A DNA stretch of 64,000 nucleotides from an uncultured Eubacteriales bacterium (GTDB lineage: Bacteria; Bacillota; Clostridia; Christensenellales; Aristaeellaceae). The translations under genes and the position numbers were made by a program. The notes under the pieces are model-generated. The model did not search any database. It worked only from the letters and a program-made list of their open reading frames with translations, and was not told where the DNA came from. The stretch spans positions 1 to 64,000 of the forward strand of contig CACZHW010000012.1 of NCBI GenBank assembly GCA_902781095.1. The letters are read 5' to 3'. Of the stretch, positions 32,923 through 54,648 are shown piece by piece (position 1 is the first letter of the stretch; each line of letters opens with the position of its first letter).

Positions 32923-33270
32923 GGGGGTGTACTGGTTTCGACGGGATCGCAGGTGGTCGGGTAAGCGAGCCGCAGCCCCGGGCTGCGTTAAAACCGGGAA
33001 ATAAAATTGAACTGACAATAGCGAATACGCTTTCGCGGCCTAATCAGGCTGCGCGTCGGCCCGGGGTTCCCGCTGCCCCGGTCACCGGCGTCAATTCAGC
33101 GGGCCATGTTCCTGCCTAAGCTTTGCGGCTTGAACACATTATGAAGCTACCGAATCCCTGAGCCTGTCCACGGGCGCCCGGACGAGGGAATTCTAAATCA
33201 TGGACTGCGCTCGGAGAAAGCCCGGCTGTCACTTTTTCGGACAGGGGTTCGATTCCCCTCACCTCCACCA
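32923..33270 (+). ncRNA. ssrA: Transfer-messenger RNA (tmRNA)
   Basis: A 348-nt one-piece tmRNA. The 5' end GGGGGTG (32923-32929) pairs with CACCTCC just before the encoded CCA (33268-33270); ACTGGTTTCGACGGGAT and the T-arm GGTTCGATTCC are present. The tag frame reads GAC AAT AGC GAA TAC GCT TTC GCG GCC TAA (33014-33043), giving DNSEYAFAA, or TDNSEYAFAA if the resume codon is the preceding ACT. The 3' end is the left border of a 22-kb accessory region; tmRNA genes are classic integration sites. Confidence 0.97.
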
Positions 33271-33345: not shown

Positions 33346-33354
33346 AAGACTCTT

Positions 33355-33600
33355 CCCGTAGGACTATCGGTATGGGTTTCGGCCTTTCGCAGGCCGATTT
33401 GTTTATTTTGGGGGCTTATAGGGCTACGGGAACACCTTTCCCCGTAGGCTTATGACCATTCCCGTAGCCCTATAAGGCTCTCCCGTAGGCTTATACCCTG
33501 TTCCCGTAGTCTTATAATGCTTTCCCGTAGGCTTATGCCTCATTCCCGTAGTCCTATAAGGTTCTCCCGTAGGCTTATGCCCCTATTCCCGTAGTTCAAT
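33355..33600. repeat. Helically phased iteron array, about 21-bp period (CCCGTAG repeats)
   Basis: Eight direct copies of CCCGTAG plus about 6 bp start at 33441, 33461, 33482, 33503, 33524, 33545, 33566 and 33588 (steps 20-22, mostly 21). They alternate between CCCGTAGGCTTAT and CCCGTAGYCYTATA-like versions, so the higher-order unit is about 42 bp. A ninth copy is at 33355 and an inverted copy (GGGGCTTATAGGGCTACGGGAA) at 33411-33432. The gene-free interval 33346-33650 holds only this array. A period of two helical turns places all copies on one DNA face. Confidence 0.93.
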
Positions 33601-33650
33601 AAAAAATGAGCGGTCAGCCCGCCCACAAAAAGAATCACGGTCAGGTGATC

Positions 33651-34682
33651 TCATTCAAGCTCTCTCCTCCAATCCATCCCAATCGGAATGGGTGGAAGCC
33701 AACGGATGATGGGCTTCCTGTCCGGAAACTTTGCGCTCCTGGGGCCAACCCAGAAGGTATGCCAATGCGCCGCCCGCACATGAGGCCGCGGACTGGAGTG
33801 AGCTCCCTGCACAGAAGCCATTTCCTTCTCAGCAGTGCGCTCATGGTTTTTGTAATTCCGGATAGCGTTGGAGACACGGACACCGACGTCCCACACCTGA
33901 GGCTCTTTGGGGCTTCTCACTCCGCCGCTGATCGTCCGCCGCTTCTGCGGATGCTCGATCTGCGGCATATCCGGTTCTTCGCTGCACAGATACAGGAGAA
34001 GCTGGAGCATGGAGGAAAATGTCTTTTTATATTCGTCCCGGCTGCCGACATACCGGGAACTGTCATTCGGAGGCATAAACAGATTGTCGGTTGCGTCCAC
34101 CCTGTCCATAGCGTCAGAAATCGTGCCTTCGCCCAGCGGCAGCGCGATCATTTTCGGTATATGTATTTCATCTGAGAAAATCGCGAACTGCAGGTCTATG
34201 CCTTTGCTGAACAGATTGTAATCCAGATGCGCGATAAAGCCGGTAATCGGATGACGCTCATAGGTCATGCCCGGAGTTTCCACAAAAACCGCCCACTCGG
34301 GAAGATGATACAGGCAGTCCGTGGGAATGTTGCCTGACAATGGCTGGCTGATCAGCGCATCGTAAATCTCGGGGGCGAAACGATAGACTCCTTTGCTGGC
34401 GCGCCAGGTGTAAAGCGTTCCTATGGTCATCATCTCTTCCATGTGCGTCAGGTAAAATGCCTCCCCATACTTGTGCGTAAGCACCAGAAAGGGAAACAGC
34501 GTGGGCATATAGCACCAGTCAGGAACGCTTCTGAGCAGTTCCATCCCGCCGGTATCCCTTCGGATGAATCCTTCCGGATGTTCGTAGCCCTTCCGGATGT
34601 CTGTCCAAAGGTTCGGGTACTGGCGGTTCAAATACCTGATCCAGCGGTCAGGGGCGTAATTAGAAAGTTCCTTTTTAGGCAC
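33651..34682 (-). CDS. AcrVA2-family anti-CRISPR homolog
   Basis: A 343-residue protein starting at GTG 34682, 7 nt behind AAAGGAGG; the ATG at 34700 would put the SD inside the gene. From memory of the Moraxella AcrVA2 protein I match, in order, a LYTWRASKGVYRFAPEIYDA segment, a HLPEWAVFVETPG segment, YLCSEEPDM, KEPQVWDVGVRVSNAIRNY and the C-terminal RPHVRAAHWHTFWVG followed by a charged WLPP end. AcrVA2 lowers Cas12a expression during its translation. No Cas gene is in the window. A weak TTGCTA-17-GATAGA promoter lies at 34715-34743 on the minus strand. Confidence 0.85.
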   Translation of the reverse strand: MPKKELSNYAPDRWIRYLNRQYPNLWTDIRKGYEHPEGFIRRDTGGMELLRSVPDWCYMPTLFPFLVLTHKYGEAFYLTHMEEMMTIGTLYTWRASKGVYRFAPEIYDALISQPLSGNIPTDCLYHLPEWAVFVETPGMTYERHPITGFIAHLDYNLFSKGIDLQFAIFSDEIHIPKMIALPLGEGTISDAMDRVDATDNLFMPPNDSSRYVGSRDEYKKTFSSMLQLLLYLCSEEPDMPQIEHPQKRRTISGGVRSPKEPQVWDVGVRVSNAIRNYKNHERTAEKEMASVQGAHSSPRPHVRAAHWHTFWVGPRSAKFPDRKPIIRWLPPIPIGMDWRRELE

Positions 34683-34805
34683 GGCACTGCCTCCTTTCAT
34701 TTGGTCAGCACGTATCTATCACTCTGAAGGCTGGAAATAGCAAGTCCCGTTTGTGAATGTATTTTCTTTTGATAAATGCCCCCTGGTTTGCTTCGTACCG
34801 GGCTG

Positions 34806-34881: not shown

Positions 34882-37521
34882 TCAACCCGCTGCCGCCGCC
34901 ATCGGGATCGGAGCGGACGGCTGAAAAGCTGCCGCCTCTGTTTTCCTTTCCGCTTTGGTTTTTCTTGCGAAACATTCCGGGAAGGTTTCCGGCGTTACGA
35001 GCAGCGAGTAGACGTTTGCCTGCCCGTTTTTGCCCTTCTGCGCAACGATCTCTCTTTCGGCAAAATTGTTCAGATTGAAGTATGCTGAAGAGGTCTGCTG
35101 ACCCATGGCTTCGGCGCAGTCCTCGACTGTGAATTCTTCCTCTGCGAATATCCCGTAAAGCTTGGACAGATACAGCTTTTGTGAAGGTGTCAGGTCGTTT
35201 GCCCGCACTCCCTTGAGAATACTGCTGCAAATCCGGTAACGGCACTGTCCGGAACTGGTGCCGGTTGTTTTCCTGACAAGTCCGATGTTAAGGGCCCGGC
35301 GGATGTCGTTCCCATAAGTCCAGCTTGACGAACCGAAGCGCTTACCCCATTCTGCCGCAGTAAACGTTTCGGCTTTTTTGTCAATCAGGCCTTGCAGGAA
35401 CTGTCCGATCCGCTGATCCCTGTCTGAATCGCTTTCACGCATCTCCTTCAGTTTCTTCACTATTTCATCCGACGGAACTTCGGAAGACTGTTCGTCCATG
35501 CCCTTGAAGGCATAAACGGCGGTCCTTTTGTCGTTGGAGATGTTGACTGTCAGTCCTCTCGAAAGCATCAGATCGCAGGAATCGTTGCTTCTTTCCTTTG
35601 GAAGGCCCGATAGGTCCTTCCATTCCTGACGCGAAAAGCTGAGTATTCCTTTTTCAACGCAGTCCCGGATGGTTTCAGCGGTCTTTCGATGCATCTCTGA
35701 GAAACTGCTTTCCATCCGTTTTATTTCTTTCCAGAAATCAGGTTCGTTTGCCTGGGCGGGAGAGTGTTCCTGTACCGGGGATGCTTCGGTTTTTGCCTGA
35801 AGTCCGGCAAGCGGGATGTGAAATACCGTAGGCTTTACGTGAGGGGTTTTATTCAGGACTATTCTTCTCCGCACCAGAGAATCGCACATGTTTTTTGCCT
35901 GAATGGGCGTCAGGCCGGCGTGCTCGATCAAATCCCTTGTGGTAAAGGAGCCTTTTCCGCTCTCCACCAGTTTCCGGATGAATTGCCCCGCCCTTTGTTT
36001 ATATGGTTTGTCACTTTTTTCATAGCCGGTGATTCTGTTCCAGAACCGCTGTTCTTCCGGCGGACTCTTATCGTTTTCCTCCTGGTGTGTTTCTTCTTCC
36101 GGACCTTCTTCCTCTTCATTCGGCTGCTGCCCCGCAGATGATTCCAGGGCGTAACGGAATGAATAAGTCATGACCGTTCCGCTCTTATCCCTGTCAAGGA
36201 AACCTTTCTGGAAGATATACCTGCACTCCTGATCCGCGTCCTTGCGTTCCAAATTCATCTTTTCCGCCCATTGGGTAACCGTAAAGGTTCGGTAGCCCAA
36301 TTCGATCATCTTACGGATCTTTATGGGATATGTTCTTGTCCTGGGCGTCGGTGAATGCTTCAGTTTATCGACTGCGGTGAGAAAATCAGGCAGCGGCATG
36401 ATCTCTATCGGCGGGGAAACAGGATATTTCTTCTCTCCTGGTGCGGGGTCTTCATCCTGCTGTTGCTCTTCGGTTTCCTGCACCGTTATGGTTTCCTGCG
36501 TTGCCTCATTGGATACTGTTCTCGCAAGCGGTTCCCTGGCCAGTTCACGCTCGCGTTCAAGCGTCTGCATCTCCCTCCGGAGAAGGCGTTCTTTTCTCGC
36601 GTCTACGGCGCGCACAAGCAGTTCGATGTAATACTCTATGAAATAGGTCATGTCCCCGCCGTTTTCCGCGCGTATGATCTCCCGCATGCTTTTGTAATAC
36701 CGGTAGCTTTCCTTTGCAATGATGGCGGAAATGGAAATGTCACGGAAGAAGTCGTATCCGCAACGCAGAAGGACGGCGGAGGACATCATCCGTGACAATC
36801 GTTCGTTTCCTTCGGGGAATGGCCGCGCGACCAGAAGATAAGCCTGGGCGACGGCCGCCTTGATCAGCGGGTGGACATTGGGTTCGCCAAGGAAAGCGGT
36901 ATACTGCCGCATCCTGTCAGGGAGAGCGTGAGCCGGCGGGACATCGTATGATTCATCGTTCATGGCGGCAATGGGATGACTGTCAGCCTGCCTGTATCCT
37001 TCCGCGCACCCGTCCATTTCCTCCGTCAGAATGAAGACAAGGTTTCTGATGAAGCTCTCATCCAGCGGACGGTATAAAGTGGCCGTCATTTCCGCCCAGG
37101 CGTGCCTGTTGTTCCAGATCATCTGCTCCTGGATATTCTCGGGCTCCGTTCCGCGCTGAAGGAAATCCATTGCTTCCTGCAGGGGCATCTGGGCGCCTTC
37201 CACAAAGCTGGTGAAGAACATTTCCTCCGTCATCGCGCTTGTCATCTGCGCCAGGTATGGGTCGAAGCCTTCTTCCTGAGAAAACGCCTCCTCGCACAGC
37301 CTTTCGCTTGCGGCAATCATCCGGTCCGTCAGTACGTACCAGTAAGGCAGTCCCATGGCGTTATACAGCGGCAGTACAACAGCGGAAGCCTTGCGTCGGT
37401 TCAGCAGTTCAGGCCAGAACGAATCGATGGAGTAACTGAGGGGAAGCTTGAAAAGCACCTCCCGGCGGGAAAGATAGTGCGCCTGGAAATAGGCAAGCAG
37501 TTTATCCTTATCCATTGCCAT
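34882..37521 (-). CDS. Fic-like protein with degenerate active site and five C-terminal winged-helix-like repeats
   Basis: An 879-residue protein. Residues 104-109 (TSFVEG) match the Fic inhibitory motif [ST]xxxE[GN]. The Fic core is at 217-260, but the active-site motif HPFx[DE]GNGR reads RPFPEGNER (233-241): the catalytic His is Arg and the second Gly is Glu. A charged linker (about 305-395) leads to five related segments of about 60 residues (about 398-456, 508-568, 612-672, 701-765, 777-842), each with an FT/FS-x-x-[DE]W-like helix start and a GLV/GFL end, looking like winged helices. AMPylation is unlikely; a DNA-binding scaffold is plausible. Confidence 0.82.
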   Translation of the reverse strand: MAMDKDKLLAYFQAHYLSRREVLFKLPLSYSIDSFWPELLNRRKASAVVLPLYNAMGLPYWYVLTDRMIAASERLCEEAFSQEEGFDPYLAQMTSAMTEEMFFTSFVEGAQMPLQEAMDFLQRGTEPENIQEQMIWNNRHAWAEMTATLYRPLDESFIRNLVFILTEEMDGCAEGYRQADSHPIAAMNDESYDVPPAHALPDRMRQYTAFLGEPNVHPLIKAAVAQAYLLVARPFPEGNERLSRMMSSAVLLRCGYDFFRDISISAIIAKESYRYYKSMREIIRAENGGDMTYFIEYYIELLVRAVDARKERLLRREMQTLERERELAREPLARTVSNEATQETITVQETEEQQQDEDPAPGEKKYPVSPPIEIMPLPDFLTAVDKLKHSPTPRTRTYPIKIRKMIELGYRTFTVTQWAEKMNLERKDADQECRYIFQKGFLDRDKSGTVMTYSFRYALESSAGQQPNEEEEGPEEETHQEENDKSPPEEQRFWNRITGYEKSDKPYKQRAGQFIRKLVESGKGSFTTRDLIEHAGLTPIQAKNMCDSLVRRRIVLNKTPHVKPTVFHIPLAGLQAKTEASPVQEHSPAQANEPDFWKEIKRMESSFSEMHRKTAETIRDCVEKGILSFSRQEWKDLSGLPKERSNDSCDLMLSRGLTVNISNDKRTAVYAFKGMDEQSSEVPSDEIVKKLKEMRESDSDRDQRIGQFLQGLIDKKAETFTAAEWGKRFGSSSWTYGNDIRRALNIGLVRKTTGTSSGQCRYRICSSILKGVRANDLTPSQKLYLSKLYGIFAEEEFTVEDCAEAMGQQTSSAYFNLNNFAEREIVAQKGKNGQANVYSLLVTPETFPECFARKTKAERKTEAAAFQPSAPIPMAAAAG

Positions 37522-39662: not shown

Positions 39663-40409
39663 CTATTGCTCTTTGCCGTCTTTTTTCTTCCAAAGCTTTC
39701 CTACCAGAAGAGCGTCCAGCCTTCCGCATATTTCAGGCGCGCACTCAGCAAGTACCGCGTCCTGCCCGAGGGAAAGCTTTCCGTAGAAATCGCGCATGAA
39801 TTCTTCGCTGAAGGCTCCGTACACCATTCTGCTGGACTCATCGTGCAGATGGCATTCGCACCTGTATATGTAGCCGAGCCAGTAGGCGTATTCGTAATCG
39901 TCCGCCAGCTTTTTAACGTCCGTTTCCGAATCCAGGATTACAGGACTGGCGCGGGCCTGAGGGTCACTTTCTTCTGTCTCTTCCTCGTTCAGCGCTTTGA
40001 CGATCGCCATGTTCGGGTTTTCTCCTGTTCCGACGCCGCTGACAATTTCGTTCAGCCACATGACCGTATCCACGATAACGGAAGGGGACTTCAGCAGTAC
40101 GGGCATCCTCAGGTAGTTGGATATATCGTCTTCCTCCATGCCGCCGGCGCAGGAGAAGCTGTAGTCGATGACCCCCGCAAGCTGGCTGTTCATGAACACC
40201 GGTGCAAACTCGCTCATGGCAAGGCCCCTGTCTACCGCCGCCATGAAAATGCTTCCCTGCATGTCGCAGTAGGCAAGATCGCGTTCGGTGAATTCACGCT
40301 CAATCTTCTCCACGTCGGGGTTTATCGGGGATTCCCGCGCCATCTTCATCAACCGCTTCACGTTTCGGGAAAGCGGTCTGCTCCGCGCGGGGTTCTTGGC
40401 ACTGATCAT
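39663..40409 (-). CDS. Hypothetical island protein coupled to the recombinase
   Basis: A 248-residue protein whose start overlaps the recombinase stop by 4 nt (40406-40409). It is acidic and mostly helical. A basic N-terminus (KNPARSRPLSRNVKRLMKMA) is followed by a body with a DYEYAYWLGYIYRCECHLHD segment near residue 185. No catalytic motif is recognised. The tight coupling suggests dosage-linked action with the recombinase. Confidence 0.68.
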   Translation of the reverse strand: MISAKNPARSRPLSRNVKRLMKMARESPINPDVEKIEREFTERDLAYCDMQGSIFMAAVDRGLAMSEFAPVFMNSQLAGVIDYSFSCAGGMEEDDISNYLRMPVLLKSPSVIVDTVMWLNEIVSGVGTGENPNMAIVKALNEEETEESDPQARASPVILDSETDVKKLADDYEYAYWLGYIYRCECHLHDESSRMVYGAFSEEFMRDFYGKLSLGQDAVLAECAPEICGRLDALLVGKLWKKKDGKEQ

Positions 40410-42652
40410 TCCGGGCCTCCTTCCTCGTTTTCATCGTCGTCTTCCGCCGCGTCCATCGCGTCCAGCATGATTTCCTGGAGCGCTTCGATCTCGCTGTAGT
40501 CAACACGGTGATCGCCGCCCAGAACACGCGCTTCCGTCATGACCTCCCATTCTCCGTCGTCGTCAATCGCCGTCAGCCGGAATTCGCTGTTGTGCTCGAA
40601 GGCCGGGGTGCCGTAGTTCCGCTTTTCATATTCCGCGATTTCCTTCAGCTTCTGTTCCATCGCTTCCGTGTCCTCGATGGGCTGCGGTTCGTCGTCCGCT
40701 CCGAAGAATATTCCTTTGGTTTCTTCGGATTCCATCCGCCGTCCGGTTTCCTGCCCCGGCGCGTTCTCTTCTCCCGCTGTGCGCTTGCAAAGTTCCCTGC
40801 CGATGAAATTGTCCAGGTCGAAGAACAGGATGGTTTCACCGTCTCTTCGGCGCACGATTGCGGGTGAGCGGTATGCGTACCCTTCATCCCACCCAAGCGC
40901 TTCATACAGTATGGAACAGAACGCTTTTGCGCTGACGTTTGCGCCTTTGCCTTTCTTATCCGTCCAGCGGATTGCGTTCCGGTTGCTTTCGTCGCTCGGG
41001 CGGACGGCAAGCATCCTTTCGACCGGGTTGAACAGCACCTCGACATACTGCTGCCGGGAGATGGTGATTTTACCGTCTGATTCTGATGACGTATCCAGGC
41101 GGGAAACGCATGTGGTGCTGAAAGCCATCTGCCTGGGGCTGAAGGAGACGGTCGCTTCATACGCGTGATTGAACAGGCTTCCGCTGACCACCTGAAATCC
41201 TTCGCGGATCTTCGGAGCGTTTTCCTTTGATTCGCTCTCTTCCTGGCTGCCCTCGATCTGCGCTTTGATTTTCTGCTCCGCGCTGGAAAGCGTCCTGGCG
41301 ATGCGCTGGACTCCGTTGTCGTCTGTCATTCCGACAAGACGTCTGCCGCCCTCCGGCAGATGCTCGTTCTCCAGGTCTGTTTCCATTTCACCCTCGGCAA
41401 GCCCCATGGCGATGCTGCTGACGCGGTAGTATTCCGCGGCGTCGTATCCTGCCCAGGCCTTGTTCACGGAAATGTATCCGGTCAGCGCGCCGTGGTCGAT
41501 GACCATCATGGGGAGGTAACCGCCTGTATGCCTGTACCTGTGGCTGTTCAGTATCCGCTGCGCCGCGTTCCACTGCGCTCTGGTGATGATCGCCGGATGA
41601 TGACCCGGCTGGTAATACTTGTTCTTCTTGCCGTTGTTCCGCTTGGACTTATGGTCGTGGAAATCAGGCGTCCATGTTTTCCTGGCCAGTACGTCTCCGC
41701 AGTAGCGTTCATTCCGCAGGACGCTGTACACCGCGGCTTCCGTCCAATGCGTGCTGTGCCGTCCGCACACCTTCCACAGCCCGGTTTCCCTGCGCAGGTC
41801 GTTCAGCGTTTTCGCGATCTCCGCCGTGGAACTCCCGTTCAGCAGCATGTAATACATGAGCCGGACGGTATTCGCTTCATCCTCGTTGATGACAAGCACC
41901 TTTTTATGACTCCCGTGCCCGTCCGGTATCTCGACCCTGTCGTATCCCAGCAGCGCGGGGGTAATGAAACGGCCGCGACTGAAGCGCCATTCGATGGACA
42001 ACTGCGACGCCTCGCTCTTCATATGGCTTTCTTCCTCGGCCACCATGGCCAGGACGAAGAGGATGATGTTGCTGGTGGCGTCCAGGGTGTTTAGGTGCTC
42101 CTGCTCGAAGAATACGGGAATGGGCGGATCGTGCTTGTCCTTCAGTTCACGCACCCACCCGATGCAGTCCAGCAGGTTTCTCGCGAAGCGGCTCACCGAC
42201 TTGGTGATGATCATGTCGATCTTGCCGTCCATGGCGTCTTTCATCATGAGTTTGAAGGCCGGCCGGTGATCCGTGTTCGTTCCGGAGAATCCGTCGTCCA
42301 CGTAGGTGCCGGCGTAGCGCCATTTGGGATTGGCTTTGATCATGTCCCGGTAATTCCGCTTCTGGAGTTCGATGGACCACAGCTGATCCACGTCTTCCGT
42401 GGAGACACGGCAGTAGGCGGCGACCCTCAGGATACGGTCTTCCTGGGCGGCCTGCGCGGCGGTGGGGATCTTGTGGATGCCCTCGCCGGTATAGGTGCTG
42501 ACCTCGGCGCGCAGGGCTTCCTTCGCCCTCGCGCGTTCGGTCATGAACCCATTTCCCGGCGGACGCTCAGCGGGTTTTCCCCGCGCCTCCCGCGCCTTTT
42601 GCCTGGCCCTTTCCTCGGCCATCGGACGTACGTCTTTCAAGGGTTGCTTCAC
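40406..42652 (-). CDS. Large serine recombinase with extra C-terminal domain
   Basis: A 748-residue protein. The resolvase catalytic domain spans about residues 74-215: YCRVSTED with Ser84 as nucleophile, YVDDGFSGTN, SRFARN with the catalytic arginines, and EEESHMKSEAS. The recombinase domain follows (LLGYDRV, ALYYMLLNGSS-like YYMLLNGSS, YSVLRNERYCGD). A classic zinc-ribbon CxxC pair is not evident; instead residues about 486-620 carry a domain shared with three downstream genes. The start is GTG 42652, though GGAG sits only 1-2 nt upstream; TTG 42640 is an alternative. It probably moves the island. Confidence 0.9.
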   Translation of the reverse strand: MKQPLKDVRPMAEERARQKAREARGKPAERPPGNGFMTERARAKEALRAEVSTYTGEGIHKIPTAAQAAQEDRILRVAAYCRVSTEDVDQLWSIELQKRNYRDMIKANPKWRYAGTYVDDGFSGTNTDHRPAFKLMMKDAMDGKIDMIITKSVSRFARNLLDCIGWVRELKDKHDPPIPVFFEQEHLNTLDATSNIILFVLAMVAEEESHMKSEASQLSIEWRFSRGRFITPALLGYDRVEIPDGHGSHKKVLVINEDEANTVRLMYYMLLNGSSTAEIAKTLNDLRRETGLWKVCGRHSTHWTEAAVYSVLRNERYCGDVLARKTWTPDFHDHKSKRNNGKKNKYYQPGHHPAIITRAQWNAAQRILNSHRYRHTGGYLPMMVIDHGALTGYISVNKAWAGYDAAEYYRVSSIAMGLAEGEMETDLENEHLPEGGRRLVGMTDDNGVQRIARTLSSAEQKIKAQIEGSQEESESKENAPKIREGFQVVSGSLFNHAYEATVSFSPRQMAFSTTCVSRLDTSSESDGKITISRQQYVEVLFNPVERMLAVRPSDESNRNAIRWTDKKGKGANVSAKAFCSILYEALGWDEGYAYRSPAIVRRRDGETILFFDLDNFIGRELCKRTAGEENAPGQETGRRMESEETKGIFFGADDEPQPIEDTEAMEQKLKEIAEYEKRNYGTPAFEHNSEFRLTAIDDDGEWEVMTEARVLGGDHRVDYSEIEALQEIMLDAMDAAEDDDENEEGGPE

Positions 42653-42750: not shown

Positions 42751-43020
42751 TTATTTTTCAGTGAACACACCCAGTTCCTCAAACTCCGCCCCGAAAGTGA
42801 TCTCATACGGGTCGATGCCCAGCACCGCGCACACTGCAAGTCCTATCTTCATACTTGCATTTCGGAAAGGCCTTTCGCCGTTTTCGAGGCGCTGATACTG
42901 CCTGATGTTTATGCCGATGATCGTGGCCACCTTCTGCTGGGAATATCCCATCCGGAGGCGCGCTTCCGTGATCATTTTCGCTTCATACCCCGTACGTTCG
43001 TTGATCTTTCTTCCGGCCAT
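42751..43020 (-). CDS. XRE-family HTH transcriptional regulator
   Basis: An 89-residue protein with ATG 43020 behind AAAGGAGG. The helix-turn-helix is clear: ARLRMGYSQQKVATIIGI then NIRQYQRLENGERPFRNAS (about residues 22-58). It is oriented towards the recombinase, with a TTGACT-17-CTGTAT promoter at about 43050-43080. It is the best candidate to bind the CCGTACGG-type site upstream of the recombinase and HAD operons, as an element-encoded repressor; that link is inference. Confidence 0.88.
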   Translation of the reverse strand: MAGRKINERTGYEAKMITEARLRMGYSQQKVATIIGINIRQYQRLENGERPFRNASMKIGLAVCAVLGIDPYEITFGAEFEELGVFTEK

Positions 43021-43121
43021 CCCGCCGCCTCCTTTCTCAAGGGTAGGTGGCATACAGCCATAGGTTCGGAAGGAAGTCAACGCCTGTGCTCAAGAGTTAT
43101 CCTAAAGTTAAGAAACAAAAG

Positions 43122-48572: not shown

Positions 48573-50021
48573 TTAGGATAAAAAGTATGTATCAATTTCT
48601 CCAACCGTATGCAATATTTTGCTATCGCTTACACCTGCTTCTTTCGCGAGTAGAATAGATGCCCAGAAAGATTTATTTACATCTGAATTGAATGCGAGTT
48701 CGCAGATGCCGTTATAATAAGTGACATACGCCAGGAGATCGTTAATTGTTTTTTGCAAGTCTGACTTTAAAGAATTAGTATATACTGTCAATTCTGAATT
48801 CATCTCTTCAACTAAAGCTTCTTCCTTCTTTTCAGCATATCTAATACAAATACCATAAAGTGTTTCACCGATAATATTTCCAATAACTGCCCCTAGAATT
48901 GGGATTGGAATGATCATTTGCCCAAAGTAAGAAGACAAGGTACTAATGGCAATATCAAGACACATTATTTCTGAGTTTATCAAGAAGGTGTCTTCGGCAA
49001 TAGCGCCTCTTTCATATGCATTCAACTGAGAAACAACACCAATTGCCGCCGTAGTGTATGCAGATGCAAGATTCGCCGATGTATTAGTAAAATTGGTCAA
49101 TAGATATACGCTAGTGCCACGTATGCCGCCCTTAATTATACCAAATCCGGTTTCTTTTGCGATCTCTATCCAGTCATTCTCATCAAACTCGTATAGGTGC
49201 TTTCCGGAACGGAGCTTTTTGAATACACATATGCAAAAGCAAAGACCGCCTTCAACTGCTGCAGATGTTCCTGCCACTTTGGCCCCTTCTTTTAGCGAAG
49301 GAGCAGTTTTTCGATACGCTTCCTGACGCTGTTCCTGATCCTTTTTATCAAGCAATTGTTTTTCATTATCAATAGCTGCATTAACTTCGTTCTGCTGTAC
49401 TTGATTATAGTCAGCAACAGACGGTGCTAAATCAGAGGAGACCGACAACCCTGTATCCTTTTCAAATTCATTTATTGCTTGCAGTTGAGACCATTCCGAA
49501 TTACTCAAAGATGAGGGTTTGTTTTTTGAACGATAAATAATTTCTTGCATTTCTTCCCATTGATCCTTGGGGATATCATAGCTTCCACCGTTTGACACAA
49601 AATCCGGATAGGTTTCAGAATGCTTCTTTACTGCTCGAAGTGTGTTTTTTATTCCGTTGCAGAACTTTGACTGTATTTGTTCGCCGTTCCTTAGATAGTC
49701 CTCTGGTGCGGTTCTTCCAACGCCGTCAAATGAATACTCTTTTTCTAAACCCAGAATTGCATTTCTCGCATTAGAGATGTTAACCTGGTAATGCTCGGCT
49801 ATTTCACCGTGCTTAGTCAATTCGCTCCCGAGAATATGCTCTGGATCAGCAATAAAGCTTTTAAGTTCATTTAGTTCTGCTAAGGCATTCTCCAAATTCA
49901 AATCTTGTTTAAACAGTCTTGAACACAGGTCATATAACCGAAGCTGATTCTTATAGTCGATCCACGCTGCTGTAGCCTTGTCGACAGTACTTCTTGAGGC
50001 TCTGCTTACAGATTCGGCCAT
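48573..50021 (-). CDS. Putative membrane-active protein of a two-gene accessory module
   Basis: A 482-residue AT-rich gene. The first 250 residues are a helical/coiled-coil region; a second part (about 250-420) has Gly/Ala-rich amphipathic and hydrophobic stretches (FGIIKGGIRGTSVYLLTNFT, then TAAIGVVSQL, then MIIPIPILGAVIGNIIGETL), a glycine-zipper-like pattern seen in pore-type proteins. The ATG overlaps the stop of the upstream gene by one base (TAATG). I do not recognise the family. The position beside defence-like genes suggests an effector. Confidence 0.7.
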   Translation of the reverse strand: MAESVSRASRSTVDKATAAWIDYKNQLRLYDLCSRLFKQDLNLENALAELNELKSFIADPEHILGSELTKHGEIAEHYQVNISNARNAILGLEKEYSFDGVGRTAPEDYLRNGEQIQSKFCNGIKNTLRAVKKHSETYPDFVSNGGSYDIPKDQWEEMQEIIYRSKNKPSSLSNSEWSQLQAINEFEKDTGLSVSSDLAPSVADYNQVQQNEVNAAIDNEKQLLDKKDQEQRQEAYRKTAPSLKEGAKVAGTSAAVEGGLCFCICVFKKLRSGKHLYEFDENDWIEIAKETGFGIIKGGIRGTSVYLLTNFTNTSANLASAYTTAAIGVVSQLNAYERGAIAEDTFLINSEIMCLDIAISTLSSYFGQMIIPIPILGAVIGNIIGETLYGICIRYAEKKEEALVEEMNSELTVYTNSLKSDLQKTINDLLAYVTYYNGICELAFNSDVNKSFWASILLAKEAGVSDSKILHTVGEIDTYFLS

Positions 50022-50719
50022 TATTGCTCCTCCTCAGAATAAGTTATTGCTTTGCTAATAGCCTCTGATAACGTAAGTGTCTTGTTTACTATACTCCCAA
50101 GGAATTTTCTAATTTGGATGTCTAAAGACCTATAATCGCAGTTTCTATACAAACCGAGACGATCAACTTCAGAGTTTAAACCATTATATAATGTTTCAAT
50201 CATGCTGGTTTTTGCATCGATCTGTGCTATATATTTTGATAATTCAGTCTCTTTCTTCCTTATCTCTTGAGTTACTTTAAATGCTTCATTGGCGATTTTT
50301 GTATTCGTAGCCTTAATCTTCAAAACTGATAATGCAGTATGAAAGGCAACGATTGCCCAACCAAACCAATGGTCAAAACGTTCTCCAGAACCTATATATA
50401 CCCAACCTCGACCTGCTCCTTTTAGAAGATCACCAGTGGCATCTAAGTATCCTTCAAATGCCTGATCTTTATATTCTTCAGTTTTTTTATATGTCGAAAT
50501 ATTGCTTGTAACGGTAAAGATGTCAGTTCGCATTTCCTTTGGTGAATTGCAAATTGAATTAATTAGATCACAAATATGATTAATTAGATCTATTGACGCT
50601 TCCTGGCAATTGCGAAGCTTATCTGAAGAAGATTTCAACTGAGGCAATAAATTGTTGAATGACGATAATGCTTTTTCATAGTTCGCAAGCGCTTCTTTCT
50701 TAAGGTCATTGTTAAGCAT
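50021..50719 (-). CDS. Partner protein of the two-gene module
   Basis: A 232-residue AT-rich gene (SD TTGGAGGG). Helical throughout, with an N-terminal coiled-coil (YEKALSSFNNLLPQLKSSSD), a central hydrophobic stretch (HWFGWAIVAFHTALSVLKI) and a second helical part (VTQEIRKKETELSKYIAQ). The central segment could be one membrane pass. It is co-translated with the 482-residue protein. No family recognised; it may sense or gate the partner. Confidence 0.68.
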   Translation of the reverse strand: MLNNDLKKEALANYEKALSSFNNLLPQLKSSSDKLRNCQEASIDLINHICDLINSICNSPKEMRTDIFTVTSNISTYKKTEEYKDQAFEGYLDATGDLLKGAGRGWVYIGSGERFDHWFGWAIVAFHTALSVLKIKATNTKIANEAFKVTQEIRKKETELSKYIAQIDAKTSMIETLYNGLNSEVDRLGLYRNCDYRSLDIQIRKFLGSIVNKTLTLSEAISKAITYSEEEQ

Positions 50720-50758
50720 TGTAGCATCCCTCCAAAGGATCCATCATAGACATTATAT

Positions 50759-50789
50759 GCCCTACTGGGGAGCGTATATCCAGTAGGGC
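50759..50789 (-). terminator. Hairpin between the DUF2130 gene and the two-gene module
   Basis: A perfect 10-bp stem GCCCTACTGG/CCAGTAGGGC (50759-50768, 50780-50789), with no long U tract. On the minus strand it runs into TATAAT (50752-50757), a probable -10 of the next operon. The stem can therefore act as terminator and mark that promoter. Confidence 0.6.
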
Positions 50790-50810
50790 ATTATTAAAAT
50801 GCATTTTATG

Positions 50811-52226
50811 TCAAGAAATTTGGATTCCCGCTTCTTCGAATTTGTCTCGCATGGTGGGATTGCCTTTTGTAAGCTTTTTTATAGATAAGTCCTGAGCTTT
50901 ATCATTTGCCAAGCGCAATTGGTTTTCAGATTTCGTAAGGGAGTCCTTTATTTTTTCTAAATGCTTGATTGTTTCATCGATCTCATCAATAGCTTTAGAG
51001 AAATGCTGACTTGCCAATTGATAATTCCTTCCAAACTTATCTTTGAAATCAATCATTGCCTGCTCGAATTGACGGACATCCAGGTTTTGTTGTTGTGCAA
51101 TAGCAAGTTCGCGTCTTGTCTGTATATTTGATAGAGCTGCATTGCGTAATAATGAAATTAGAGGAATAAAGAACTGCGGACGAACAACATACATTTTTTC
51201 ATACTGGTGCGCCATAACAATACCTGTATTGTAGTACTCGTTGTCCGGTTCCAGCATCGTGACTAAAACTGCATATTCACAGTTCTTCTTTTTACGATCC
51301 TTATCCAATTTATCAAGAAAATCTTCGTTCTTGTGCTTTTTTTCTGTAGCATCAGCCTCATTCTTCATTTCAAACATTATTGAAAGAAGGGGGATACCAT
51401 CTTCCGATTCTTCACGATAGATGAAATCGCCTTTGGTACCCTCAATGACTTCGTTGTCTTTCTCAAAGTATGCATGAGGGAAAGCCATCATTCGTACCTG
51501 GTTGAAGGAGATCAGACAATGCTGCTCAAGGCTTTCCCCAATCATTTTGGTTGATTGTTTTAATTTAAAATCACGGTATTGCTCGACTTCGGCTTCCAAG
51601 CGTGCAACCTCAGTTTTATGTGCCTCACGCAGCCCTTGTTCTCTGATTTCAGCAGCTTGCTGTTCTTGAATAATCTTCCCACGCAATTCAGTAATCTCAG
51701 TATCTTTTTCATGAACAGCGTTTGAAATAGCAAGCTGTTTATCGGTCTCTGCTGCTTTTGCCTGTTCCTTAAGCAGCAAAATCTCTTGATCCTTAGAGGC
51801 TAAATCATGTTGCCGTAGCGTTTCTGCTTGAGCAAGAGCTGCCTCTTTCTGTGCTGAAAAGGCGCTTTGTTGTTGTTCCAATCGCTGCTTTTCCTGATCA
51901 ATTTGGCCTTGCAAACGTATTATTTCTGCATTCTTCTCCTGAATTGCAGACTCAACTGCGTGCTGTCTGGCCTCTTCAGCATTCTTTGCCTGCTCCTTTA
52001 GTCTAAGGATTTCCTGATCCTTTTCCGCTAAATCCTGTTGATGCTGAGCTTTAGCTTCTGTTAATGCTTCACGTTGAAGTGCTTCGAGCTCACGATGTAG
52101 TGCTTCTGTACGATCACGAACCTCTTTATCAAACTCTACGGTGCGAACTTGAGCAGAAATCGCGGCATAACCTGCTTCATCCACTTGGAACACTTCACCA
52201 CAATGGGGACATTTAATCTCGTTCAT
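50811..52226 (-). CDS. DUF2130 protein (nuclease-like domain with long coiled coil)
   Basis: A 471-residue protein. Residues 1-13 hold a CPHCG zinc-like start. Residues about 35-225 are coiled coil with a clear internal duplication: [20 protein letters not shown] and [20 protein letters not shown] begin two copies of about 60 residues. The DUF2130 core (about 230-370) has a PD-(D/E)xK-like pattern (GDFIYREE, then [11 protein letters not shown]). The family resembles restriction-type nucleases. It is separate from the downstream pair by a hairpin, and is followed upstream by the TOPRIM gene at 14 nt. Confidence 0.88.
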
Positions 52227-52240
52227 GCCGTTCTCCTTCT

Positions 52241-53014
52241 TTAGCCGTTGATCATTGTCAGCAACTTCTCAAATAGCAAGTTGATGTTTGAAAATCTTCG
52301 GAGAGAATTATAACCTTGACGGATATATGCCCATGATTCCTCATATGTTCTCCCATGAGCAACATCCTGATCGTTTATAAAGAACTTCGCAGCTAACATG
52401 GCATCACCATCAAATTGGGAATAGAATTGAGCCGCTTTATCGCACTTTTCGCGTCCTGTAGGTATATTTGTTTCCCGGTGGAGAAAGGTGTCTAAGTTGC
52501 ATGACATGTAATAAACAGAATAAGGAACGGTTTTCGTTTTTACTTTGATCTCTTTTCGAGAACAAAGGTAATCGATATTTGCGCGTTTTCTTAAATTCCG
52601 ATTCCTAATACCCTGTACATTGTTCGCTTCTATTCTGTCTGCATAATACATCACAGGATGCTCTTCACTTAGGGGCTCCGATGGAAATACAACATTTTCA
52701 TCTGGTATATAAGCGCCGTCAAGATCAACTATCTGTATGATCTCGGTCACGTCCTTTGGGTAAATGTTTTCCTTATCCAAAAGAGGCCCGACAACAAGTT
52801 TATGCATCAGCATCTCAATTTTCTCCGGAGTGACTCCGTTTCGAGATGTTATATCTCCACCTACAACCCCATCTTCTTCCATCTGGCAAAAGAAGACCTC
52901 AGCATTTTCGTCTATTTTTTCATAGAGTTCACTCATAATAGTCCACAAAGCGTTTCTCTCTGATAAACCTTCGACTAAAAACAGAACGATTTGCTTCTTA
53001 GGCCTCTTTCCCAT
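52241..53014 (-). CDS. TOPRIM-like protein of an ATPase/TOPRIM defence pair
   Basis: A 257-residue protein; ATG 53014 lies inside the end of the ATPase gene (17-nt overlap). The N-terminus has the TOPRIM glutamate motif ([14 protein letters not shown]) and a later DxD ([14 protein letters not shown]), the ligands of the nuclease metal. The rest ([28 protein letters not shown]) is not a match I can name, although RloB/AbiLii and DUF4435 (AriB) proteins have a similar layout. With an ABC-type ATPase as partner, a phage-defence nuclease role is likely. Confidence 0.8.
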
Positions 53015-54461
53015 TTCCAACCCCCGCTTTCCGAAGAGCATCTACAATCTTGTACCGTTTGGTACGATTATATATTTCTTCGTCTTGTTCATGCATCAGG
53101 ATTTCACGGAAATACACATTTCGGAGATTATTTGTTTTCCCGATGCTCTTCAAGTGGATATACCGGTTATCAGGGTTGGTTGTAGTGAAATAAAGGTACT
53201 TTTTATCTATTACTTCCAGGGGACGAAGATTATGAGATGTAAAGATAAATTGCCCTTTTCCAGATTCTTCTATAGTCTGTAATATCTCTCCAAGAAGGTA
53301 TTCAAAAATACCAGCGTCAAATTCATCAATGGCAACGGTGCAGGATTGATCATTATAAACAGCAATGATCAAAGCAAGAATTGAAATTATTTTTCTGATG
53401 CCATCAGATTCGGAACGAAGAGGAAGTTCCACTCCATCGCGAGATGCGACCATCTCGACGATTCGACCCTCTTTGCCATCTTTCATTAATGTAGGAGAAA
53501 GAGATTTTAACCCTATAGAGAGTTCGGGAACAAGTTGAGTTAGAACAGAATTGATGTTTTCGAATTGCTCATTGATTTCATTAAAGAGTTCTGTAGGAAT
53601 AGTTGTTGGTCCTTTTGCATTTAACGGAAGCGTTCCATTTCTTGTATACAAAGGCATGCCAACATTTAAACGGATAAGACCGGAGGATTTTGTATTTACA
53701 ACAAAGAAATAAAACACACTAAAATAATGCAATTCAAGAATCAATTGATAGTACTCAGAATATAATCCTGTACTACTTATCAGTTTAACTGTATCCTTCA
53801 TAAAGACAAATGAACGCGAACGTTCATAGGCTAGTTGCTTGTTCACCTCAAGTTGTACAGGCAGTTTCTTATCAGTGCCAATGATTTGCTCCATTTTTTG
53901 TTTGGAACTAAAAGGCATGTCAGCACGAGAAGTATCAATAAACGGCTTCATCGTTTTCTTTTCGCCATCAATATCGCCCGCAACCCTTAGAATCTCATTG
54001 AATACATGAATTGCCATTCCGTTGGAAATCGGTTCGTCATCATCATCGTCATCGTCGGTTGACTCGTATTTTACTGTCTCATTCTGCTTTACTTGTTCTG
54101 CTGAAATGCAGAACGAATACTCGACCTTTCTAATCCGACCATCTGGGTATTGAAGATCGAACGTGAATGTCAAGCGGGAATAGTCTGCATTTCTTGCAAT
54201 ACATTCTGCATAAACGCTAGGCAATTTGCCTCCAGACATGAGAATTCGAAGAATGGCAAGTGCTTCAATAATTGCGGTTTTGCCAGAACCATTTTGCCCA
54301 TATATTCCCATAATGTCTGACTTAGTACCATAAGGAACAAATTCTTTTCCGCAATTAAAAACTAGTTCGCCATGGCGAACACTTTTGAAGTTTTCTAGAA
54401 TCATCTTTTGAATACGGACAGTCGGAAGATTATCCGCATGATCTTTAGTCATGAATGGCAT
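52998..54461 (-). CDS. AAA/ABC-type ATPase of a defence pair
   Basis: A 487-residue protein; ATG 54461 with GAGGAGG. It has ILENFKSVRHGELVF, Walker A IYGQNGSGKTAIIEAL (about residue 55), an SESDGIRKI signature-like segment, Walker B VAIDEFDAGI and a FTSHNLRPL H-loop. It belongs with RecF/OLD-like ATPases such as AbiLi/RloA and AriA. An acidic insert (DDDDDDD near residue 140) is unusual. It is coupled to the TOPRIM gene, forming a sensor-effector pair. Confidence 0.88.
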   Translation of the reverse strand: MPFMTKDHADNLPTVRIQKMILENFKSVRHGELVFNCGKEFVPYGTKSDIMGIYGQNGSGKTAIIEALAILRILMSGGKLPSVYAECIARNADYSRLTFTFDLQYPDGRIRKVEYSFCISAEQVKQNETVKYESTDDDDDDDEPISNGMAIHVFNEILRVAGDIDGEKKTMKPFIDTSRADMPFSSKQKMEQIIGTDKKLPVQLEVNKQLAYERSRSFVFMKDTVKLISSTGLYSEYYQLILELHYFSVFYFFVVNTKSSGLIRLNVGMPLYTRNGTLPLNAKGPTTIPTELFNEINEQFENINSVLTQLVPELSIGLKSLSPTLMKDGKEGRIVEMVASRDGVELPLRSESDGIRKIISILALIIAVYNDQSCTVAIDEFDAGIFEYLLGEILQTIEESGKGQFIFTSHNLRPLEVIDKKYLYFTTTNPDNRYIHLKSIGKTNNLRNVYFREILMHEQDEEIYNRTKRYKIVDALRKAGVGNGKEA

Positions 54462-54648
54462 CGTTGATTCCTCCTCACCAGATTTAGCCAACGAATATAT
54501 AGTAACACTCATTTATCAATTTGTAAATATGAACTTTGAGAAATTGAATAAAAAATTCAAAATCTGCAAGTTCGTGTTAATTCGACCTATTTCGCGTTTC
54601 AATTTGTGGAATAAACAGGGGAGAATAAATATGTATGGTCTTTTAAGA

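Follow-up and report, generated by a model that had tools for sequence, protein, structure and literature searches.

The window analyzed here, a stretch of 64,000 nucleotides from a contig of an uncultured Eubacteriales bacterium, carries on its minus strand (33651..34682) a gene of the AcrVA2/FinQ superfamily (phrog_6160), which encodes a protein of 343 residues from a GTG start, as the first-pass annotation of this DNA had delineated it. The longest frame begins at an in-frame ATG at 34700 and would yield 349 residues, but the GTG at 34682 is the better start, because a Shine-Dalgarno sequence read from the DNA (AAAGGAGG; 34690..34697, minus strand) lies 7 nucleotides before it and because relatives begin at the equivalent residue (MARKELSPY in the homolog L002). 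The 3' end of the gene is truncated (33651..33660, minus strand): homology to the relatives L002, L016 and L019 ends at 33657, the frame closes as RRELE* at the island edge, and the last ~10 residues of the closest intact relatives (PTNIHMVLES in L002) are missing. AcrVA2 itself (L006) likewise ends before this tail, and thus the loss need not abolish function; a functional 343-residue protein is plausible. Just past the stop codon there is a terminator-like hairpin (33606..33626, minus strand), which is a consensus match only.

The interval from the island edge to ssrA contains a tandem array (33441..33602, with units from 33353 and no assigned strand), which comprises 3.9 copies with a period of 42 bp. 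Its sub-unit of ~21 bp is close to TTCCCGTAGGCTTAT and has 9 matches in the window, all of them within 33353-33602. The ssrA gene (tmRNA; 32923..33270, plus strand) is a host gene that flanks the island and specifies the tag DNSEYAFAA, as in congeners. ARAGORN gives a 32-residue tag for this tmRNA, which we regard as a misreading by the software: in the frame at 33014 the tag is DNSEYAFAA*, identical to that of two congeners. On its other side the gene adjoins a Fic-domain (SoFic-like) protein of 879 residues (34882..37521, minus strand), and the same adjacency is seen in L002 and L016. The module further includes a large serine recombinase of the phage integrase family phrog_95 (40406..42652, minus strand), which is common to L002 and L017, an HTH regulator of the Cro/CI type (42751..43080, minus strand) and several unnamed ORFs; the first-pass annotation was correct in placing both ssrA and a recombinase near the gene. 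In L017 the gene lies on the opposite side of the recombinase.

In L002 the same module adjoins Hsp20, endolysin, holin and tail genes on a phage contig, indicating that the nearest known carriers are phages, and the three nearest copies (L002, L003 and L004) all adjoin phage lysis and tail genes. A plasmid ancestor, which the first-pass annotation had suggested, is not shown by these nearest copies with their holin, endolysin and tail gene neighbors. No phage structural genes were recognized among the annotated ORFs of the island in the window, nor was a relaxase, T4SS or other transfer gene recognized among its annotated genes, and a search for the TraG/VirD4 coupling protein gave no match in the own genome, an assembly that is ~90% complete and holds an island whose right boundary is placed only approximately. 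When an empty site was sought for that right end, the sequence past ssrA differed in every congener examined, and long direct repeats at the island flanks were not found; G+C content places the right end at ~54.5-55.8 kb. Between 43165 and 47714 there are a microbial PARG-like protein, a calcineurin-like phosphoesterase and a 'Swiss Army Knife' RNA-repair-type HAD domain. The stretch 48573-54512 is a low-G+C (~39%) cargo with the PDC-M09A/B candidate defence pair, a DUF2130 protein, and an AAA ATPase (AbiLi/AriA-like) that overlaps a 266-residue ORF with no Pfam match. The right part of the island carries defence-like cargo.

A search with the window protein as a single sequence against all PDB sequences (phmmer) recovered AcrVA2 (7ci1/7ci2) with E=1.4e-12, with the second-best match at E=1. 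The protein also matches phrog_6160, a family that carries no assigned function, over residues 56-342 (2.9e-50), and no family was found for it in Pfam, NCBIfam or PADLOC. A weak match to fructose-bisphosphatase (NCBIfam, E=0.05) was dismissed as chance. An AlphaFold model, generated from 106 homologs with no templates, reached a pLDDT of 88.8 and a pTM of 0.89. In a Foldseek search of the PDB with this model the AcrVA2 chains ranked first (3.2e-15), with all other matches at E of 0.7 or above, and VIA-align superimposed it on 7ci1 with a Z of 23.3 at 3.0 A over 270 residues. We are accordingly confident in predicting an AcrVA2 fold for the window protein; given that three rows of the model alignment belong to the AcrVA2 clade, the fold match supplements the sequence match and cannot replace it. 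Beyond AcrVA2 all structural matches had Z <3, and no catalytic or RNA-binding fold was recognized among them, which is not proof of absence. These results confirm the window gene as a real, distant relative of AcrVA2, in agreement with the homology claimed in the first-pass annotation; the single-sequence search brought up AcrVA2, and no better match to an unrelated family was seen.

The C-terminal block that the first-pass annotation had likened to AcrVA2 is RPHVRAAHWHTFWVG (residues 299-313; 33744..33788, minus strand), which aligns with RPHIRRGHWHGYWQG of AcrVA2 and contains the RxHxRxxHWH...G signature. The loci of our large alignment were fetched by means of this C-terminal motif, and hence we distrusted the conservation of the motif in that alignment alone and rechecked it on 18 diverse members that had been fetched otherwise. 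W93, P128, G148, H301, R303, H306 and G313 are invariant in these 18 sequences, and all seven are present in the window protein, which is consistent with an effector part common to the family. At position 304 the window protein has an alanine, while arginine occupies this position in 94% of the 106-sequence set.

The family is widely distributed on mobile elements. In tblastn searches the window protein matched 61 phage records and 736 plasmid records (310 from Escherichia, 189 from Acinetobacter and 147 from Salmonella), 613 of the latter being typed as conjugative, and motif-guided scans yielded at least 106 confirmed loci in genomes and at least 106 in viral contigs. Integrases and recombinases are the commonest neighbors across the family, and no operon partner beyond these is widely common. 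In a plasmid of Thioflavicoccus mobilis (L009:967-7020) BREX genes (brxL and one with a pglZ domain) plus a small hypothetical gene are followed directly by a family member, and the whole looks like a single operon. Genes annotated as finQ were among the plasmid matches of the window protein (E=9e-21), and FinQ, when used alone as a query against the PDB, in turn recovered AcrVA2 at E=3.4e-16 (phmmer). By this sequence comparison AcrVA2 and FinQ are homologous. A literature search of mainly open-access journal papers retrieved no paper that names FinQ together with anti-CRISPR. The FinQ of the E. coli IncI-gamma/K1 plasmid NZ_CP139841.1 (L005:5803-6891) is annotated with ~260 residues, which is ~100 residues short of the conserved frame.

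In a tree of 133 members, the deep branches of which are weakly supported so that the order of clades is not read from it, we noted three separate groupings, each with an SH-aLRT support of 100 and a long stem: a Moraxellaceae AcrVA2 clade of 5 rows (stem of 2.05 changes per column), a clade of FinQ with Pantoea L072 (2.25 changes per column), and a clade comprising the window protein, L002 and L017 (1.99 changes per column). The window protein falls outside both of the former, and none of the three is nested within another. Given that the AcrVA2 and FinQ lineages hit different targets, the target of the window clade cannot be deduced from homology alone. The designation 'AcrVA2 homolog' does not entail an anti-Cas12a function, as the large family also includes FinQ, and the anti-Cas12a role implied by the first-pass annotation is not supported: FinQ is no more distant from AcrVA2 (E=3.4e-16) than the window protein, which itself stands outside the Moraxella/Acinetobacter AcrVA2 clade.

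AcrVA2 is described as reading the nascent LSKT-containing N-terminus of Cas12a, which results in the loss of Cas12a mRNA (PMC13131331), and FinQ brings about the loss of transcripts of the F tra operon, an effect attributed to termination at several sites (PMC8744291); going by these papers, each of the two characterized members depletes the mRNA of a single selected system. We propose, with about even confidence, that the window protein is a mobile-element silencer that would deplete the mRNA of a particular gene of a rival or of the host by a general mechanism like that of AcrVA2. The gene would be accessory cargo of the serine-recombinase mobile module adjoining ssrA, and its product would recognize a short peptide within target proteins of one particular class during their synthesis; recognition would lead to loss of the mRNA, and the competing or defending system would not be produced. 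Both the retention of a mechanism acting through nascent peptide and mRNA and the type of target are inferred; the target is probably not Cas12a and more likely belongs to another mobile element, as in the case of FinQ, or to a defence system that these hosts possess. Against an AcrVA2-like mechanism it may be held that FinQ was described as a transcription terminator and not as an mRNA-decay factor, and that the window copy is shorter by ~10 C-terminal residues and unlike most members at position 304. The low identity to both AcrVA2 and FinQ (~20-25%) also leaves room for a change in the biochemical mechanism.

More specific readings of the gene were considered alongside this proposal. One, which we regard as possible though rather unlikely, is that a phage-borne accessory gene would confer superinfection immunity or assist host takeover by silencing an early gene of a rival phage or a host defence, for example a type I-E Cas protein. 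It draws on the phage lysis and tail genes beside the three nearest copies, on the defence-like character of the neighboring Fic protein and the downstream cargo, and on the CRISPR-Cas content of the host: the own genome has a Cas1, surrounded by cas3, cse1, cse2, cas7, cas5, cas6 and repeats, in a type I-E locus followed by a repeat array (G000:C22:28800-38400, L201), the type being read from the protein sequences, with a profile match run for Cas1 only. A FinQ-like fertility inhibitor, which would silence the transfer genes of co-resident conjugative elements, appears unlikely. The homology to FinQ, the location of FinQ inside the IncI transfer region and the dominance of conjugative plasmids among the family members in the plasmid collection would all fit such a role; nevertheless, TraG/VirD4 was not found in the own genome, the annotated genes of the island include no recognized relaxase or T4SS gene, the window protein and FinQ fall into different clades, and many members reside on phages.

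The distribution of cas12a bears on the reading that the first-pass annotation had favored. It had correctly stated that Cas12a is absent from the window, and a search for cas12a in the genome and its relatives, which it had suggested, gave no match in the own genome and none above the family cut-off in the 297 genomes of the order (own genome included), the host encoding the type I-E system instead. In a sample of 391 genomes of the class one has cas12a and three have a family member, with no overlap between them, and among 40 genomes carrying the family cas12a was found in a single one, that of Moraxella lacunata (1153 bits). Recovery of the latter, a positive control, shows that the search works, and positive controls gave matches in both the carrier-genome and the class searches. 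An anti-Cas12a gene would be useless in this host and of little use in the order, and the notion that the island had met type V-A immunity is not supported by these counts. A true anti-CRISPR of the AcrVA2 type could still act by silencing Cas12a once the element reaches a recipient with cas12a outside the order: sequence and fold are homologous to AcrVA2, elements can bear counter-defence genes that serve in hosts they do not currently occupy, and AcrVA2 is reported to target diverse Cas12a orthologs (PMC13131331). We nonetheless consider this quite improbable, as the window clade is separate from that of AcrVA2, 39 of the 40 carriers are without cas12a, the order sample has no cas12a above the cut-off, cas12a never accompanies a family member in the class sample, and FinQ, of the same family, has another target.

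In comparison with L002, its nearest full-length relative, the window gene shows a dN of 0.147 and a dS of 1.07 (dN/dS ~0.14) and is under purifying selection. The pair is mosaic, with a dS of 0.50 in residues 207-343 and near 2 or above in the first 206, and this jump between the halves speaks for an intragenic recombination event close to residue 207. Copies truncated at the 5' end, with intact 3' ends and differing breakpoints, were detected in MAGs of gut Clostridia; these remnants begin at residues ~138 (L018), ~209 (L019), ~270 (L066) and ~294 (L081). The break in L019 is near the site where the window gene and L002 show an abrupt jump in identity. That the window copy is itself a non-working, decaying remnant, shortened as the island was trimmed back to its ssrA side, would account for the missing last ~10 residues beyond 33657 and would have parallels in these relatives, but is hard to credit for a frame that is open over 343 codons, keeps every family-invariant residue and has a low dN/dS, the more so as AcrVA2 itself ends before the lost tail.

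A wider form of the preferred reading, that of a silencer of one specific mRNA, can be offered tentatively, at somewhat less than even confidence: AcrVA2 and FinQ would be two arms of one family of nascent-peptide mRNA silencers, the 'termination' ascribed to FinQ would be translation-dependent mRNA loss, and the window clade would be a third arm. In this context we observed that TrbB of the F plasmid (trbB, L198:16873-17418) starts with MSLTKSLLFTLL, which resembles the Cas12a cue LSKTVRFEL / LTKTLRFSL. An L[ST]K[ST] core was tried as a common motif of the N-termini of F Tra proteins and rejected, as its single occurrence is a chance-level result (13-15% of shuffles). The longer pattern L[ST]K[ST]xxFxL, which matches TrbB, was seen in 0.02-0.04% of shuffles, but the pattern had been extended after TrbB was seen. 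Because of this post hoc extension, and because the N-terminus of TrbB looks like a signal peptide, we retain the match only as a weak lead.

The analysis adds a member to a known superfamily, and the homology between AcrVA2 and FinQ was its unexpected result. AcrVA2 has been reported as the first bacterial protein known to destroy an mRNA through recognition of the emerging translation product, while the shutdown of F-plasmid transfer transcripts by FinQ, a decades-old observation, follows an unexplained route. Their homology, in a family spread over phages and plasmids of many phyla, suggests that nascent-peptide silencing may be a general weapon between elements rather than one specific to CRISPR. 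It also makes the mechanism of FinQ directly testable, and FinQ in E. coli K-12 would be a much easier system for resolving it. Caution is advisable in labelling such genes 'AcrVA2' by homology, a label that one gene of a Shewanella phage already bears.

Among the known systems, AcrVA2 (Moraxella bovoculi, 7ci1/7ci2, with homologs in M. lacunata and the Mcat phages) shares with the window protein the full-length fold, a homologous sequence, the invariant residues and carriage on mobile elements. The window protein differs from it in being only ~24% identical to the Mcat5 homolog, in forming a separate clade on a long branch, in having RAAHWH where AcrVA2 has RRGHWH, in its extended N-terminal region, and in residing in a host and an order without cas12a. 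FinQ, the fertility inhibitor of F from IncI plasmids, belongs to the same superfamily and has the same C-terminal signature and tail; it shows 23% identity to the window protein, lies in a clade of its own and sits among the conjugation genes of a conjugative plasmid, whereas the window gene is part of a recombinase/Fic module with no recognized transfer genes. A further member, ORF43 of the Shewanella phage vB_SbaS_Y11, was named AcrVA2 by homology (PMC10846135); it comes from a phage of Gammaproteobacteria, and the same paper points to a type I-E, and not a type V-A, system in a Shewanella genome (PMC10846135).
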